64,000 nucleotides of DNA, taken from positions 124,001 to 188,000 of the forward strand of contig JBBEBQ010000005.1 of the NCBI GenBank assembly GCA_040882285.1, read 5' to 3'. The translations under genes and the position numbers were made by a program. Positions 36,581 to 62,035 of this stretch are shown here, one piece after another (positions within the stretch are counted from its first letter, which is position 1; every line of letters begins with the position of its first letter). This stretch comes from Gemmatimonadaceae bacterium (GTDB taxonomy: Bacteria; Gemmatimonadota; Gemmatimonadetes; Gemmatimonadales; Gemmatimonadaceae). Under the pieces are notes generated by a model. It had not been told where the DNA came from. It was given only the letters and a program-made list of their open reading frames with translations, and ran no database searches.

Positions 36581-37200
36581 CCGACGTGACCCGCCGCGAC
36601 GCGGTCAAGGCGATGGCCGCGCTCCCCTTCGCTCTCGCGTGGGACCTCACGCCGCCGCAGCTCGAGCGCGCGGGGCGCGCGTTCGCGACCGATGCACAGA
36701 ATTACGCTCCCACGTTCTTCACCAGCAGTGAATGGGAGACCGTGCGGATGCTGGTGGACTACATCATCCCGCGCGACGAGCGGTCGGGCAGCGCGACCGA
36801 GGCGAAAGTCCCGGAGTACATGGACTTTCTGTTCTCCGACAAGGACGCGTCCGAATCGAGCAAAGTCGCCATGCGCGGCGGGCTCGGCTGGCTCGACTTC
36901 GAGTGCCGCGAGCGGTTCGGCGCGACCTTCGCGCGCTGCACCGACGAGCAGCGGCGCGCCGTGCTCGACGACGTCGCCTGGCCCGCGCGCGCGAAGCCGG
37001 AGCACAGCCACGGCGTCTCGTTCTTCACCCGCTTCCGCGATCTCACCGCCGGCGGATTCTTCTCCAGCGCGATGGGCTGGCAGGACGTGCGCTACGCGGG
37101 CAACGTGTTCAACCCGAACTGGCAGGGGTGCTCCGCCGAGGCGATGGCGAAGCTCGGCGTGTCGCAGGATCTCATGAACACGCGCATCCCGGTTCAGTGA
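36577..37200 (+). CDS. Gluconate 2-dehydrogenase subunit 3-like protein (GMC small subunit), Tat signal
   Basis: This 207-residue protein has a Tat motif near the start (TRRDAVKAMAALPFALAW) and the subunit-3 pattern FFTSSEWETVRMLVDYIIPRD, FSDKDASES, FFTRFRDLTAGGFFSS and GWQDVRYAGN. It would assemble with and export the GMC subunit. It overlaps the upstream gene by ATGA and the downstream dehydrogenase by GTGA. Confidence 0.9.
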   Translation: MTDVTRRDAVKAMAALPFALAWDLTPPQLERAGRAFATDAQNYAPTFFTSSEWETVRMLVDYIIPRDERSGSATEAKVPEYMDFLFSDKDASESSKVAMRGGLGWLDFECRERFGATFARCTDEQRRAVLDDVAWPARAKPEHSHGVSFFTRFRDLTAGGFFSSAMGWQDVRYAGNVFNPNWQGCSAEAMAKLGVSQDLMNTRIPVQ

Positions 37201-38441
37201 GCGGTGGGCGGCTCGGCATAGGGCTGGTCGGGAGCGGCTTCAACGCCCGCTTCCACATCCAGGCGTTCGCGGCCGTGCGCGACGCCGACGTGGTCGGGGT
37301 GTGGAGCCCGAACAGGAAGAACGCGGCCGCCACGGCGGCGTACGCCCGCGCGCTGGAGGTGGGCGACACGAAGCCGTTCCGGTCGATCCGTGAGATGGTC
37401 GCCGACCCGGCGGTGGACGCGATCTGGCTGTGCGGCCCCAACCACGCGCGCATCGCCAACGTCGAGGAGATCGTCTCGACGATCGAGCGCGGAGAGGGCG
37501 AGCTGCGCGGGCTCGCCTGCGAGAAGCCGCTGGCGCGCAACGTCGCCGAGGCGAAGAAGGTCGCCCGGCTCGCCGCGAGCGTCGGCCTGAATACGGGCTA
37601 CCTGGAGAACCAGTTGTTCGCGCCGGACATCACGCGCGGGCGCGATCTGATCTGGGCGCGCGGCGCCGCCCTCACCGGCCGCCCGTACCTCGCGCGTGCC
37701 GCGGAGGAGCACAGCGGTCCGCACATGCCCTGGTTCTGGCAGGGGACGCTGCAGGGCGGCGGAGTGCTGAACGACATGATGTGCCACTCGGTCGAGGTCG
37801 TGCGCCATCTGCTGACCGAGCCCGGCGCGCCTCGCTCGTCCATTCGGCCGGTACGCGTCACGGGTCATGTCGCTTCACTCAAGTGGACGCGGCCGCAGTA
37901 CGCCAGGCGTCTGCGGGCCACGATGGGCAAGGACGTAGACTACCGCCGCCGACCCGCAGAGGATTTCGCGCGGGCGACGATCGAATACGAGGCATCCACC
38001 GGCGAAACTCTCATCGGCGAAGTCACGACGTCCTGGAGCTTCGTCGGCGCGGGGCTGCGCCTGTCGGCGGAGCTGCTCGGTCCCGAGTACTCGATGTCGT
38101 GGAACACGCTCGACAGCTGGCTCAAGCTGTTCTTCAGCCGCGAAGTGCGCGGAAAGGCGGGTGAAGATCTGGTGGAAAAGCAGAACGCCGAGATGGGATT
38201 GATGCCCGTCGTCGCCGACGAAGCTGCGGCGTACGGCTACGCCGCGGAGAACAGGCATTTCGTGCGGACGTTTCTGCGGGGGGAGAAGCCGATGCTGACG
38301 TTCGAGGACGGGGTTGAAGTCATGCAGATTTTGATGACAGCGTACATGAGTGCGGCGAAAGGAAGGACGTTGGAGTTTCCGCCGAAGGGGCTGGATTCTT
38401 TCGTGCCCGAAGTCGCTCGCGGCAAGTGGAGACCGCGGTGA
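37197..38441 (+). CDS. Gfo/Idh/MocA-family NAD(P)-dependent oxidoreductase
   Basis: This 414-residue dehydrogenase has an N-terminal Rossmann fold (GIGLVGSGFNARFHIQAFAAV), the AIWLCGPNHARIANVE strand, the EKPLARN motif, and the larger alpha/beta domain with GGGVLNDMMCHSVEVVRHLL (landmarks GGGVLNDMMCH). It starts at a GTG overlapping the previous stop as GTGA, giving VSGGRLGIGLVG. There is no signal peptide, so it probably works in the cytoplasm on a keto- or cyclitol-type sugar. It is the last gene before element A. Confidence 0.9.
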   Translation: MSGGRLGIGLVGSGFNARFHIQAFAAVRDADVVGVWSPNRKNAAATAAYARALEVGDTKPFRSIREMVADPAVDAIWLCGPNHARIANVEEIVSTIERGEGELRGLACEKPLARNVAEAKKVARLAASVGLNTGYLENQLFAPDITRGRDLIWARGAALTGRPYLARAAEEHSGPHMPWFWQGTLQGGGVLNDMMCHSVEVVRHLLTEPGAPRSSIRPVRVTGHVASLKWTRPQYARRLRATMGKDVDYRRRPAEDFARATIEYEASTGETLIGEVTTSWSFVGAGLRLSAELLGPEYSMSWNTLDSWLKLFFSREVRGKAGEDLVEKQNAEMGLMPVVADEAAAYGYAAENRHFVRTFLRGEKPMLTFEDGVEVMQILMTAYMSAAKGRTLEFPPKGLDSFVPEVARGKWRPR

Positions 38442-38442
38442 A

Positions 38443-38526
38443 CTGCGCTGCGTGCTAACTGCGCTGCGTGCTGCGTGCTACCGGCGCTACATGCTGCGTG
38501 CTGCGTGCTGCGGCCTGCGCCCTCGC
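38443..38526. repeat. Left heptamer array and inverted-repeat arm of element A
   Basis: Units of CTGCGTG and close variants repeat at 7-bp steps from the end of the Gfo/Idh gene. The last 34 bp (38493-38526) are exactly complementary to 39095-39128. A partial echo of the arm continues to about 38550 (TCGCAGGCTCCGT). Confidence 0.88.
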
Positions 38527-38566
38527 TGCGGCGTGGGTCCTCGCAGGCTCCGTGCGCGATCCATGT

Positions 38567-38938
38567 TCACTGTTCCTCACCACCGTTTGGATCCGGGCGA
38601 ATGTCGCGGTCGCGCTCCTTGGGAATGGCCTTGAGAAGGATCTGGCAGATGCGTGTCAGTAGAGAAGTGCGCTTCTCATAGTCAGCTCGCTCGAGGACGT
38701 GCCTGGCAGCGTGGTACCAAAACCGACATTCCCGGGCGGAGCTGAGCGCGTACTCGAAGAACCGCACTCGATCTTTTCCGGAGCTGCGACTGTATCCGTC
38801 GCAGATGTTCGCCCCGATCGAGCTCGCTGACCGGTACAGCTGCGACGCTATGAATGCTGTCGTCGGATGCGTCCTGACCGTCGCGGCATCTGCCCACGCA
38901 AAATCCAGTACTTCAAGCGCCAATCTGTACGCCGCCAT
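38567..38938 (-). CDS. Four-helix-bundle protein (23S rRNA IVP/Avd-like family)
   Basis: This protein of about 123 residues (MAAYRLALEVLDFAWADAAT start) has the family pattern: a first helix, then QLYRSASSIGANICDGYSR, GKDRVRFFEYALSSARECRFW, and a C-terminal helix LLTRICQILLKAIP. Members are encoded in intervening sequences of 23S rRNA genes and, as Avd, beside diversity-generating retroelements; they bind nucleic acid or a reverse transcriptase. An upstream in-frame GTG (MHAGDPIRRMAAY) is an alternative start. It lies wholly between the arms of element A. A second gene of the family is at 49711. Confidence 0.85.
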   Translation of the reverse strand: MAAYRLALEVLDFAWADAATVRTHPTTAFIASQLYRSASSIGANICDGYSRSSGKDRVRFFEYALSSARECRFWYHAARHVLERADYEKRTSLLTRICQILLKAIPKERDRDIRPDPNGGEEQ

Positions 38939-39094
38939 CCGCCTGATCGGATCGCCAGCGTGCACCGGACCCGGCTCCCCTTCCCTGAATTCGGCAGGCT
39001 CGCTCTCCACCCCGAATCCTGTATGGAGAGGCCCGAATTCCCCGAATCGTTTTGCCAGTGGTGCAACACAATCATTTCCGGTGCAACGGACCCT

Positions 39095-39128
39095 GCGAGG
39101 GCGCAGGCCGCAGCACGCAGCACGCAGC
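39095..39128. repeat. Right inverted-repeat arm of element A
   Basis: This 34-bp segment is the exact reverse complement of 38493-38526. It is followed after 4 bp by the MFS stop codon, with ACGCAGCGTAGTTAAGC bridging the two. Confidence 0.92.
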
Positions 39129-39132
39129 GTAG

Positions 39133-40323
39133 TTAAGCCGCTTGCTGGGTCTGAGCCGGACGGAACAGCAGTGCGAAAACGACGAGGATTACCGCGGCAC
39201 CAACAGCGGGTACCATCCAAATCGCATTCCAGTCATGCCCTCCCGGCACCGCGTACCGCTCCACAATCCGCCCCGATGCCCACGCCCCGATGAAGTTTCC
39301 AACCCCCATCGTCACGAATGCGATGAACCCCTGCGCGGCCGCCCGTATCCGCACCCCCGCCTGCTGATCCACGTAGATCTGCCCCGTCACGAAAAAGAAA
39401 TCGTAGCACACGCCGTGCAGCAGGATGCCGAGATACAGCATCCACACGTTCGCGCCCAGCCCGCCGTTGGCGAACAGGAAATACCGCGCCGCCCACGCGG
39501 CCATCCCGATCAGCATGATCTTCTTCACGCCCAGCCGCACCAGGAACCACGGCAGCAGGATCATGAACGCGATCTCCGACATCTGGCCGAGCGTCATCTT
39601 GCTCGCCGGCTCCGGCAGGCCGATCTCGTTCAGGAACAGGTTCGTGAACGCGTAGTAGAACTGCAGCGGGATGCACAGCAGGAACGACCCCACCACGAAC
39701 ACGGCGAACGATCGGTCGCGCATCAGCGACAGCGCATCCAGCCCCAGCACGTCCCGCACCGACAAGGGGCGGCCCGCAGAGCTCGGCGGCGTGTGTGGCA
39801 ATAGAAGAGCGAAAGCCGCGAGTACCAGCGACGCGCCGGCCGCGATCCGCATCGGCACCGCGGTCGCCTCCAGTCCGAGCTGGCCGACGAGAATTCCCGC
39901 GACGATCCACCCGATCGTCCCCAGCACGCGGATCCGCGGAAATTCTTTCGCCGAGCTCGCCACGTTCGCGAACGAGATGGCGTTGGACAGCGCGAGCGTC
40001 GGCATGTAAAACAGCGCGTACAGGATCAATACGGGATAGAACGTTCCGAAGTCGCCGATCGTCGATGCGTACCACAGCAGCACCGCCCCGCCGACGTGCA
40101 GCGCGACCAGCATCTTCTCGGTCGCGAAGAACCGGTCGGCGACCATTCCCACGAAAAACGGCGAGACCATCGCCGCGATCGCCAGACTGCCGTACGCGAG
40201 GCCGATCTGCGTGCCGTCGAAGGCGAGCGTGGTCCCGAGATACGTGCCCAGCGTGACGAACCATGCCCCCCAGATGAAGTACTGCAGGAACATCATGATC
40301 GACAGCCGCGCGCGCACGCTCAC
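39133..40323 (-). CDS. MFS permease, nucleoside:H+ symporter-like
   Basis: This 396-residue protein has twelve predicted transmembrane helices and the NupG/XapB-like N-terminus [38 protein letters not shown] and [20 protein letters not shown] (landmarks WGAWFVTLG and YDFFFVTGQ). Members near DUF1080, GMC and Gfo/Idh genes are thought to import sugars or sugar derivatives. Its ATG overlaps the DUF1080 stop by ATGA. Confidence 0.9.
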
Positions 40324-49428: not shown

Positions 49429-49515
49429 GATAGCCTCCGTGTTTTGTGAATGAGAATTACTGCTGATCTCATTTGCATAGACCGTTCCGGCGTGCGGTGA
49501 TTCGCACGATTGGTT

Positions 49516-49640
49516 GAACTGCCAAATAGAACTGCCAGGCTGCGAGCTGCCAGCGGGTAGCTGCCAGCTTCGAGCTTTAGAACTGCCACATAGAAATGCC
49601 AAGCGGCGAGCTGCCAGCGGGAAGCTGCCAGCTTCGAGCC
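49516..49640. repeat. Duplicated left arm of element B
   Basis: Two 61-bp copies (49516-49576 and 49580-49640) start GAACTGCCA and share the same 7-bp steps; they differ at a handful of positions (for example GCTGCGAG versus GCGGCGAG). Confidence 0.88.
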
Positions 49641-49710
49641 AGGCTGGAAACGATTATGGGGCTCGAGAATTGATCGGGCAGTCGGCGCGTAGCGCGGCGA
49701 AGCTCCGACG

Positions 49711-50100
49711 ATGGCGGATTACCGGAAGCTCAAAGTCTGGCAGAAGGCGCACTCGCTTTCGCTCCACGCGCATCGGGCAGCTACGCGCATTCGCGGCCAA
49801 CACTATGCCGCGTTGCGAAGCCAGATCATCCGCTCGGCGAGCTCAATGCCGACGAACATCGTCGAGGGCCGCGAGCAGAAGACGGATCCCGCTTTCGCCC
49901 GATACCTTCGGTTTTCGATCTCATCGGTTTCGGAGCTGGAATACCATCTCTTGGAGGCGAAAGACATCGAGGTCATCAGCGCCAGCGAGCACCACTCGCT
50001 ATCGAGCGAGGTCGTGGAGGTCCGGATGATGTTGCACGGGCTCATTCGCCGCCTGGAAGGTGGCGAGGAAGATGACGCGCCAAAACCTGAGTCGCCCTAA
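49711..50100 (+). CDS. Four-helix-bundle protein (23S rRNA IVP/Avd-like family)
   Basis: This 129-residue protein begins with the classic family start MADYRKLKVWQKAHSLSLHA and has LRSQIIRSASSMPTNIVEG, FARYLRFSISSVSELEYHL and a C-terminal MMLHGLIRRLEGG helix. It is closer to the common IVP consensus than the protein at 38567. It sits inside element B. No retroelement reverse transcriptase or template repeat is nearby, so an Avd role is unlikely here. Confidence 0.93.
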   Translation: MADYRKLKVWQKAHSLSLHAHRAATRIRGQHYAALRSQIIRSASSMPTNIVEGREQKTDPAFARYLRFSISSVSELEYHLLEAKDIEVISASEHHSLSSEVVEVRMMLHGLIRRLEGGEEDDAPKPESP

Positions 50101-50158
50101 GCTCGCAGCTGGCAGCTACCCGCTGGCCGCTCGCAGCTTGGCAGTTCTCTGTGGCAGT
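50099..50158. repeat. Right arm of element B
   Basis: This segment is the inverted counterpart of 49518-49577, with 7-bp steps CGCAGCT, GGCAGCT, ACCCGCT, GGCCGCT, CGCAGCT. It overlaps the end of the four-helix-bundle gene and ends 4 bp before the L,D-transpeptidase stop. Confidence 0.88.
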
Positions 50159-50161
50159 CAA

Positions 50162-51889
50162 CTACCGATCGGCTATCCGCCTGAGCGCCTGAACCGCGGC
50201 CACCGCCTGCGGCGTCGGCATCGCCGCCGGGCCGACGACGTCCATCAACCGGTCGTCGCGCGCGTACAGGTCATTGCCGAAATACAATTGCCCACCGCGC
50301 ATGTACGTCGTGATGTATGCGATGTAGACCGGGATCTTCCGCGGCAGCTTTACCGTGCGGTCGTCTGGCCCGCGGTTCATCGCTTCATCTATCCTGTCCT
50401 GCTCCCAGCCGAGGACGAAGTTGGCCAGCCGGTTCGGCCGCTCGACCCGGATGCAGCCGTGGCTGAAGGCGCGCACGTCTTCCTTGAACAGCTCGCGGTT
50501 CGGCGTATCGTGCAGATAAATGGCGAAATCGTTCGGGAACATGAACTTGATCTGGCCGAGCGCGTTGTCGTCGCCCGGGCGCTGCCGGACGCGCGTCTCC
50601 CCGCCCGCGGTGTACACCTCCATGTTGTTGGCCGCGAGGTAGCCGGGCCCCTTCGGGAAGATTTCCTTCTCCGCGATGTTGGGCGGCACCAGCCAGTACG
50701 GCCGGAATACCACGTACTCCATCGAGTCGGAGAACACCGGCGTCGCGCGGTCCTCATACTCCTGCCCGACGATGACCTTCATCTCGAGCACGATCTTGCC
50801 GCCGTCGTACGCCTCCAGGCGGAACGCGGGAACGTTGACGAAGATGTAGCGCGAGCCCAATGAGCGCGGCAGCCAGCGATACCGCTCCATGTTCGCCGCG
50901 ATCTGCGCGAGCCGGTACTGCGCCGGCTTGTTGAGCGCTTCGAGCGTCTCGCCGCCGAGCACGCTGTCCACGACGATCGTGCTCCGGGCCTGGAACTGCG
51001 CCACGGCAGCCGCGAGCGCGCGGTCGTACGTCGCGGCGGGCGCAGCTACCGGGCGGCTGCCGGTGTCGCCGGGAGCAGCCGCGGCGATCTCGAATCCCTG
51101 GGCCGTGAGCCGCGCGCGCAGCGCGGTCGCAACGGCGGGGCTGATCCGTTCGCCCGGCTTCACCGATTCGGTGAGCGGCACGCGCGGCCATCCGCCGGCC
51201 AGCACGAGCTTGCGGTACCTGTCGAGCTCGACGCGAAGTCCCTGGTAGTCCGTGTCCTGCGGCCGCATCGTCGCGAGCGACCGGTCGAGCGCGTCGATTC
51301 GCAGGCCGCGCGCGAGCGCGCTGTCCACGTTCTCTTCCCGCGGATCCACGAACCAGCTCTTTGAGACCGTCTTCGGGTTGATCTGGCCGGTGAGCAGGTC
51401 CTCGCCGAGGGCGGCGTACGACGCCGTGAGCATCACGTCGGCTTCGGCGAGCTGCTCGGCCGTCGGATTCCGGTTGCCCTTCACGGCCGCGAGCGCGGCG
51501 GCGAGGCGCGGGATCGGGTAATCGTCGATCCGCATCGCGTCGGAGTGGACGGCCAGAATCGCGTCGGTCAGCGCGCGCGTGCGCGCGTCGTGCAGCCCTT
51601 TCGGCGTCAGCCAGAGCGGCTTGGTGCCGTAGGCCTTGTACAGCGCCTTGGTGTGGGACCACTGCTCGCGGTCGATAGTGCGCGGCGCGGTCTCGGCGAG
51701 CTTCGTCTCCATCGCGGCCACGATCGCCGTGGCGGGGACTTCATTGACGGACTTGAGCTGCTCCGGAGCCCAGGCCCTGGCTGTCTCGGCCTCGGTGTCG
51801 GCTTCGCCGCGAGAGCAGGCCGCAACGGCGAGGAGCGCCGCGAGCGCGAGGAGTCGTATCGTGCGGGCATCTGATTGAGTTGAAGTCAT
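50162..51889 (-). CDS. L,D-transpeptidase (YcbB-like) lipoprotein
   Basis: This 575-residue protein has a lipoprotein signal (LLALAALLAVAACSRG), a long scaffold with a peptidoglycan-binding-like region (YDRALAAAVAQFQARSTIVV), and a catalytic YkuD domain with FSHGCIRVERPNRLANFVLG near 480, holding the nucleophile Cys in HGCIR. It makes 3-3 peptidoglycan cross-links or attaches proteins to the wall in the periplasm. The ATG at 51889 has GGAGA upstream. Its TAG stop abuts element B. Confidence 0.92.
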   Translation of the reverse strand: MTSTQSDARTIRLLALAALLAVAACSRGEADTEAETARAWAPEQLKSVNEVPATAIVAAMETKLAETAPRTIDREQWSHTKALYKAYGTKPLWLTPKGLHDARTRALTDAILAVHSDAMRIDDYPIPRLAAALAAVKGNRNPTAEQLAEADVMLTASYAALGEDLLTGQINPKTVSKSWFVDPREENVDSALARGLRIDALDRSLATMRPQDTDYQGLRVELDRYRKLVLAGGWPRVPLTESVKPGERISPAVATALRARLTAQGFEIAAAAPGDTGSRPVAAPAATYDRALAAAVAQFQARSTIVVDSVLGGETLEALNKPAQYRLAQIAANMERYRWLPRSLGSRYIFVNVPAFRLEAYDGGKIVLEMKVIVGQEYEDRATPVFSDSMEYVVFRPYWLVPPNIAEKEIFPKGPGYLAANNMEVYTAGGETRVRQRPGDDNALGQIKFMFPNDFAIYLHDTPNRELFKEDVRAFSHGCIRVERPNRLANFVLGWEQDRIDEAMNRGPDDRTVKLPRKIPVYIAYITTYMRGGQLYFGNDLYARDDRLMDVVGPAAMPTPQAVAAVQALRRIADR

Positions 51890-59341: not shown

Positions 59342-59415
59342 GCAGCTAGCAGCTAGCAGCTAGCAGCGAGCAGCGAGCAGCGAGCAGCGAGCAGCGAGAA
59401 GCGAGCAGCGAGAAG
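59342..59415. repeat. Tandem heptamer array (GCAGCTA/GCAGCGA)
   Basis: About ten head-to-tail 7-bp units (GCAGCTA x3, then GCAGCGA with GAAGCGA variants) lie between the convergent phosphoesterase and CDF genes. There is no inverted arm. Confidence 0.9.
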
Positions 59416-59429
59416 AAACACCAGGACGA

Positions 59430-60299
59430 TTATTCGTACGGCTCGAGATGCACGAGCACCGAGTCCACGCGCGGCACGGCGGCGCGGATCGCGCTCTTCA
59501 CCATCCCGCCGACGATGTGCGCGTCACGAATCGACAGCGACGGCTCGGTTTGGACGTGCAGCGTTACGCGGTAGGTCATTCCCGTTCTGCTCACCGCGAG
59601 CTTCTCCGTGGCGAGCACGCCGGGAACGCCCTCCGCCGCGCGACGGACCGGCTCGACGATGTCGGCACCGGGCATGCGGTCCATGAGATCGCGCATCGCC
59701 GAGCGCAACATGACCACGCCGTTGTACGCGATGATGCCAGTGGCGAGCAGCGCGGCCCAGTCGTCGGCCGACTCCCAGCCCTCGCCGCCCCAGACGGCAA
59801 CAGTAATTCCGACGAACGCGGCCGCCGAGGTGATCGTATCGCTCAGATGGTGCGACGCGTCGGCCTCCACCGCCCTGCTGCCGATGTCCACTCCCACCGC
59901 GCGCACGCGGCGCGCGAGCACGAGCTTCGTCACGATTACGGCCACGAGAACCGCCAGCGTCCACGGCGCGGGAGTGTTGTGCGGCGCGCGTATCTCGCTC
60001 ACCGCCTGGTACGCGATGCCGATGGCGGCGCCGAGCAGCATGAGCGAGACCACCGCCGCCGCGAGCGCTTCGGCCTTGCCGTAGCCGAACGGATAATCGT
60101 CGTCCGGCTCCCGGCCGGAGACGTGCAGCCCGCCCCACACGACGAGCGACGAGAAGATGTCCGCCGTGGATTCGACCGCGTCGGCGATCAGGGCGTACGT
60201 ATTTCCGACGACACCCGCGACCAGCTTGGTCACCGCCAGCACGGCGTTCACCAGCACGCCGAACTGCGCCGACCTGATGCCCCTGCTCACCTGCGTCAT
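59430..60299 (-). CDS. Cation diffusion facilitator (CDF) efflux protein
   Basis: This 289-residue transporter has six helices and CDF landmarks LIADAVESTADIFSSLVVWGG (landmarks ADAVESTADI; metal-site Asp in the HxxxD-equivalent AVEADASHHLSDTITS) and a C-terminal cytoplasmic domain (RDAHIVGGMVKSAIRAAVP). It exports Zn or another divalent metal using protons. It lies 25 nt before (downstream of) the phosphoesterase at 60325. Confidence 0.92.
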   Translation of the reverse strand: MTQVSRGIRSAQFGVLVNAVLAVTKLVAGVVGNTYALIADAVESTADIFSSLVVWGGLHVSGREPDDDYPFGYGKAEALAAAVVSLMLLGAAIGIAYQAVSEIRAPHNTPAPWTLAVLVAVIVTKLVLARRVRAVGVDIGSRAVEADASHHLSDTITSAAAFVGITVAVWGGEGWESADDWAALLATGIIAYNGVVMLRSAMRDLMDRMPGADIVEPVRRAAEGVPGVLATEKLAVSRTGMTYRVTLHVQTEPSLSIRDAHIVGGMVKSAIRAAVPRVDSVLVHLEPYE

Positions 60300-61936: not shown

Positions 61937-61957
61937 TCGAATCTCCGAAAGAAATAT

Positions 61958-62035
61958 GTGACTAGTGACTAGTGACTGGTGACTAGGAACTGCAAACTGC
62001 CCCTCGCTGCTAGCTGCTAGCTGCTAGCCTGCCAG
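61958..62035. repeat. Heptamer arrays between arsR and arsM that encode the arsR C-terminus
   Basis: TGACTAG repeats four times from 61958, then GAACTGCAAACTGCC and three TAGCTGC units follow, in inverse orientation to the array at 59342. On the minus strand the latter encode the last residues of ArsR (AGRLAASS) and its TAG stop. Confidence 0.82.

Follow-up and report, generated by a model that had tools for sequence, protein, structure and literature searches.

Four-helix-bundle genes between inverted heptad arms and their gene-less cognate hairpins: a probable dispersed element in Gemmatimonadaceae

The intervening sequences (IVSs) in the 23S rRNA genes of Coxiella and Leptospira carry an S23p open reading frame (ORF), for a four-helix-bundle protein, within an inverted repeat. 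In the Coxiella IVS, GACAGAT heptamers lie upstream of the S23 ORF, and the S23-family protein of X. campestris is pentameric (PMC4990558). REPIN/RAYT systems combine dispersed short intergenic inverted pairs with a partner gene among the same repeats, in several families per genome (PMC3116915). Tandem heptameric repeats are known as GGGAATC in Xanthomonas, STRR in cyanobacteria and TAACTGA in Beggiatoaceae (PMC4692102, PMC4679880). The Xanthomonas word is a dispersed G-quadruplex heptad (PMC4692102) that often occurs as inverted pairs between genes (PMC4692102, PMC4679880), and the Xanthomonas study reports no general association of these heptads with mobile elements (PMC4692102).

The locus described here resembles an IVS in that a four-helix-bundle ORF lies within an inverted repeat, whereas it is intergenic and multi-copy, has element-specific heptad arms and has gene-less relatives. 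It resembles REPIN/RAYT systems in its dispersed inverted pairs, and meets the REPIN criterion that these consist of the repeat bordering the partner gene; however, the partner encodes a four-helix bundle, there is no Y1 gene and the arms are 7-bp tandem arrays. With heptameric and STRR repeats it shares tandem 7-bp words in intergenic DNA, but differs from them in that its word is also found in the arms of a four-helix-bundle element resident in the genome. Avd of diversity-generating retroelements has the same fold (8ub7), yet the present genome has no reverse transcriptase. We file the element as a separate kind because it appears to work like REPIN/RAYT and looks like an IVS, yet lacks a defining feature of each; on a stricter view, the IVS could be the parent kind. 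To our knowledge, the over-representation of heptameric repeats in many bacteria has not been explained, and S23/four-helix-bundle proteins are common proteins whose structures are solved (2gsc, 2rld) but whose function is unassigned; we know of no catalytic residue for transposition in this fold. A literature search that covered heptamers, S23 proteins and REPs, but neither subscription papers nor most preprints, found no link between a four-helix-bundle gene and dispersed heptads.

The element at the convergent junction

The element occupies positions 38442-39135 of the window, the whole 64,000-nt stretch analysed, and fills a convergent junction from the stop codon of a Gfo/Idh-type gene to that of an MFS gene (Table 1). 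The sequence-only reading had proposed a 34-bp perfect inverted repeat embedded in CTGCGTG heptads, an enclosed gene for a 23S-rRNA-IVP-like four-helix-bundle protein and an intergenic placement, and it held on each point. The 34-bp arms are 100% complementary and 568 bp apart, with further inverted pairs extending to 38441-38456 / 39119-39134. A 16-mer of the doubled CTGCGTG heptad (up to 2 mismatches) occurs six times in the window, always inside the element, against 0.27 occurrences expected, and none of 100 shuffles got to six. The gene is off-centre, with about 85 bp between one arm and its start and about 40 bp between its end and the other arm; most relatives show the same arrangement.

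Table 1 Coordinates of the element, its neighbours and other heptad features in the window
Feature	Position	Strand	Remarks
Gfo/Idh-type flanking gene	37197..38441	+	Name inferred from ORF and sequence-only reading alone
Left arm, CTGCGTG heptads	38442..38526	.	Innermost 34 bp (38493-38526) perfectly inverted at 39095-39128
Left-arm inner extension	38525..38553	.	86% complementary to 39086-39114
S23/IVP four-helix-bundle CDS, 147 aa, GTG start	38567..39010	-	Profile matches, congener comparison, predicted fold
Right arm, inverted CTGCGTG heptads	39086..39135	.	Terminates at MFS stop codon
MFS (Nuc_H_symport) flanking gene	39133..40323	-	Stop codon adjoins right arm
Second four-helix-bundle element (L036)	49513..50163	+	CDS ~49711-50100; GCTGCCAGC-type inverted arms ~49513-49577 and ~50099-50163
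Gene-less AGCAGCT/AGCAGCG heptad array, convergent junction	59342..59415	.	Congener G003 has a complete four-helix-bundle element with ATCAGGT arms there
Gene-less GTGACTA array, then GCTGCTA array	61956..62028	.	Array search

The encoded protein matches PF05635 with 52 bits (cut-off 33.8) and TIGR02436 with 62 bits. Its AlphaFold model is a four-helix bundle (mean pLDDT 88) that aligns with the S23-family structures 2rld and 2gsc at TM 0.80-0.87 by target length and more weakly with Avd of the retroelement ribonucleoprotein 8ub7 (TM 0.73-0.79 by target length). The window copy has a divergent helix 1. The GTG start was placed by comparison with the orthologues in the congeners G001 and G003, and since the full-length frame is common to both, the idea that the gene is decayed was dropped. 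Across the four-helix-bundle genes, dN/dS is 0.05-0.15 wherever synonymous sites are unsaturated, and the protein is therefore kept by purifying selection. The copies flanked by inverted repeats have low GC3 (0.3-10th percentile of host genes), an atypical composition as for foreign or selfish DNA.

One explanation is that the element is a 23S rRNA IVS displaced out of its rRNA gene. The same gene family within an inverted repeat and the heptamers of the Coxiella IVS speak for such an origin, but no rRNA sequence was found in window positions 37000-63000, where the neighbours of the element are protein-coding genes, and here the element is commonly intergenic. We regard displacement as very improbable, and the reverse, that rRNA IVSs are one niche of a wider element class, as more likely. 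A search of Rfam returned no family for the hairpins.

Inverted arms across the genome, the order and other phyla

The window belongs to a 2.89-Mb draft genome of 27 contigs (G000) with ten PF05635 genes, eight of which lie between inverted arms. The arm words of its elements are GGCTATT, GCTGCCAGC, CGTTTCC, GGTTCTG, ACTCCAA, GTGAGC, GTGACTA and CTGCGTG. Arms were tested by aligning each upstream flank with the reverse-complemented downstream flank, mismatched flank pairs serving as the control. Locus L031 fails this test because its downstream arm is degenerate, although its word is the commonest. L039, a PF05635 gene scoring 43 bits, was set aside as not being an element, since its flanks give no arm match beyond the 99th percentile and its GC3 is host-like.

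Across the order, 66 of 72 PF05635 genes from 11 genomes exceed the 99th percentile of the control; at the same cut, only 5 of the 642 ordinary genes predicted in the sampled DNA of the present genome do so. A lack of inverted flanks around the genes of relatives would have spoken against the sequence-only reading; these counts show the opposite, and its expectation that such ORFs are bracketed by inverted heptads was met in the genome and in the order alike. Typical distances from the conserved domain are 80-120 nt for the arm before it and 30-60 nt for the arm after it. Arms vary among paralogues and match within a single element, with a period of 7, and their likeness tracks protein identity: no arm similarity is seen between paralogues at 30-60% identity, and arms are mostly shared between orthologues at 80% or more. 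In another genome (G033), arms and a solo array, at L125 and L142, have a longer period: plain heptads give way to CGTAGAGAGAA-type units of about 12-15 nt.

For other phyla, GTDB genomes were scanned with a family alignment and the best 80 loci were taken, of which 72 were usable; because only these best loci were included, the sample leans to relatives of XCC0516. The 99th percentile is exceeded at 39 of these 72 loci (about 1% expected) and the 95th at 59. Next to the four-helix-bundle genes only periods 7 and 14 are raised, and none is raised 1.5 kb away. The Xanthomonas arboricola orthologue of the crystallised XCC0516 (2gsc) sits between GGGAATC-type arrays, in an intergenic position between genes that by inspection alone appear to be accB and accC.

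Gene-less hairpins, cognate words and site occupancy

Tandem arrays were counted in 864 kb of the present genome (~30%). Exact tandem arrays number 67 at period 7 and eight at period 14, as against 0-3 at each other period from 4 to 15. With mismatches allowed there are 114 arrays, of which 105 (92%) are intergenic according to a home-made gene finder, often directly after stop codons. Two word families, those of L031 (ACTAGTC) and L032 (AATAGCC/AACAGCC), make up 79 of the 114; the window word, as ACGCAGC, comes next with six, and it occurs at about 25 places genome-wide, mostly as single arrays with conserved edges. All 27 adjacent array pairs have the same inverted layout, with a median gap of 39-44 bp and a modal 4-5 units. 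Four contig ends of the assembly (C3 start, C11 start, C5 end and C8 end) consist of GTGACTA arrays, and because the assembly breaks there, repeat copy number is likely underestimated.

The arrays could be host repeats, arising by slippage or serving as structural sites, into which four-helix-bundle genes insert as passengers. Arrays without such a gene are indeed far more numerous, yet slippage does not account for a single exact period, for unit numbers with a mode of 4-5 or for pairing that is always inverted. Nor does it account for distinct word families that each fit one four-helix-bundle gene, or for arms whose complementarity is kept within an element though their sequence differs from species to species. 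We give a host origin little credence.

For eight of nine elements, further copies of the arms stand elsewhere in the 864 kb, at 43, 32, 16, 14, 6, 5, 4 and 1 places, against an average of 0-0.3 places for shuffled arms; the L034 and L035 families have one or no dispersed copy in this sample. Words also switch together with arms. At one shared site, the four-helix-bundle element has GTGACTA arms in the present genome and GTGATCA arms in G002, and the genome-wide counts are, for GTGACTA, 166 in G000, 41 in G001, 19 in G003 and 0 in G002 and, for GTGATCA, 2, 0, 0 and 14, respectively; the reversed-pattern control of either heptad equals the other heptad and is no null. In 49 genomes of other phyla, GGGAATC occurs in the five Xanthomonadales with GGGAATC-like arms around their four-helix-bundle genes and in one other genome, AGTTCTC is commonest in the two with AGTTCTC arms (with lower counts in three more), and GGTGAAT is found only in the genome whose arms have it. 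The words of dispersed arrays thus pair with the arms of the resident element.

Some further configurations were seen. At C6:96063-96708 of the present genome (L161:16063-16708), CTGCGTG arms are nested around a GCTATCA-type hairpin pair, and the ORF within encodes 122 aa with a hydrophobic C-terminal half and is not a four-helix bundle. A 948-bp gene at C5:370822-371770 has an L037-type hairpin (ATCCAAGTTTGGAGTG...) on either side, the strongest inverted flanks among all predicted genes in the sample. In G008, a gene-less GGCATCA heptad hairpin lies downstream of the MFS gene (L137), and the same genome has a four-helix-bundle element with GGCATCA arms (L129).

Sites are occupied in some genomes and free in others. 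The sequence-only reading had called for an empty counterpart of the Gfo/Idh-MFS junction and would have failed had all relatives carried the repeats there; in G027, from another family of the same order, the MFS gene stands next to a Gfo/Idh-like gene with no element between. A site that is empty in the present genome holds four-helix-bundle elements in G002 and G003, and at window positions 59366-59432 only a different-word array stands where G003 has an element. One hairpin of the present genome is absent from G002 at a clean junction, with TGAG once in the empty allele and twice in the filled one. A DDE-type MITE or IS would combine constant terminal inverted repeats with a target-site duplication; arm sequences here vary per element, and this possible 4-bp duplication is the only such signal. 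Because presence and absence were compared between species, loss can mimic gain at single sites; no transposition event was caught, and movement is inferred.

Where sites are shared, an element can have diverged far more than its flanks. Identity between the window element and its G001 counterpart is mostly 53-73% inside and mostly 85-97% outside, and such excess divergence is seen for 38441-39135 versus L147, L032 versus L070 and L037 versus L073, covering synonymous sites too while dN/dS stays low. L034 has no dip relative to its flanks. The dip could reflect replacement by a divergent copy or a locally raised mutation rate, which we cannot distinguish.

These data also bear on whether the protein acts as a regulator that binds RNA, with the hairpins as its regulon of transcript-end structures, acting in termination, processing or stability, whatever first dispersed them. 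The intergenic arrays just past stop codons, the purifying selection on the protein and the fold match to Avd in a ribonucleoprotein would all suit such a role. Against it, the words turn over within the genus along with the element, the elements have atypical GC3 and, at conserved junctions, are found replaced or missing, and G.U does not outnumber A.C in the stems when the sense strand is read (13 versus 25), so that this test gives no support for RNA-level selection. We consider a regulon unlikely, while taking it more seriously than the other alternatives.

A last alternative is that a RAYT (Y1) transposase moves the hairpins, which would then be ordinary REPINs, or that they are reverse-transcribed copies made with an Avd-like four-helix-bundle helper. 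Both the REPIN-like layout (PMC3116915) and the Avd-like protein would fit. However, profile searches with working positive controls found the RAYT transposase (PF01797) in none of the four genus genomes, and no reverse transcriptase (PF00078) was found in G000, G001 or G002, which leaves this explanation with hardly any support. G003 alone of the four has two reverse transcriptase genes (C257:18073-18690 and C274:2200-2733).

A probable selfish element

The explanation we favour, and hold to be probable though not secure, is a dispersed and probably selfish element. Its gene would occupy the loop between the arms of a long inverted repeat, the arms being built from tandem 7-bp words private to the element. 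Gene-less hairpins scattered between genes, in which 4-5 heptads are typically followed by about 40 bp and 4-5 inverted heptads of that word, would be its non-autonomous offspring. The four-helix-bundle protein most likely recognises its own heptads as DNA or as a transcribed hairpin and so helps them to spread or persist, with the catalytic steps presumably supplied by host enzymes. The anatomy of the element and the pairing of its word with cognate hairpins have good support. The observations behind this proposal are the bracketing, the period of 7, the element-specific words, the cognate hairpins, the co-switching, the presence or absence at sites and the purifying selection on the protein. 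The suggestion of a dispersed element made from the sequence alone is thereby supported, through bracketing in the order and in other phyla, gene-less cognate hairpins and element-free sites. Its companion suggestion, that the encoded protein recognises the arms, has gained only indirect support, from the co-switch of word and arms and from arm likeness following protein identity, and no binding has been shown.

That the protein binds heptads, that mobilisation occurs in trans and that a pentameric ring reads tandem heptads are thus inferences; a ratio of one heptad to each subunit is guesswork, permitted but not proven by the modal 4-5 units. More tentatively still, and with the balance of our judgement against it, S23/Avd-type pentameric rings reading about one heptad per subunit might form a transposase-free class of mobile elements in bacteria and archaea, with rRNA IVSs, the G-quadruplex heptads of Xanthomonas and cyanobacterial STRRs among its products.

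Four-helix-bundle proteins and heptameric repeats co-occur across phyla, and each protein has a word of its own. This gives the protein family a probable ligand and the repeats a probable source, both of which are directly testable. If the protein does spread DNA without a transposase domain, it would represent a new way for selfish DNA to move.
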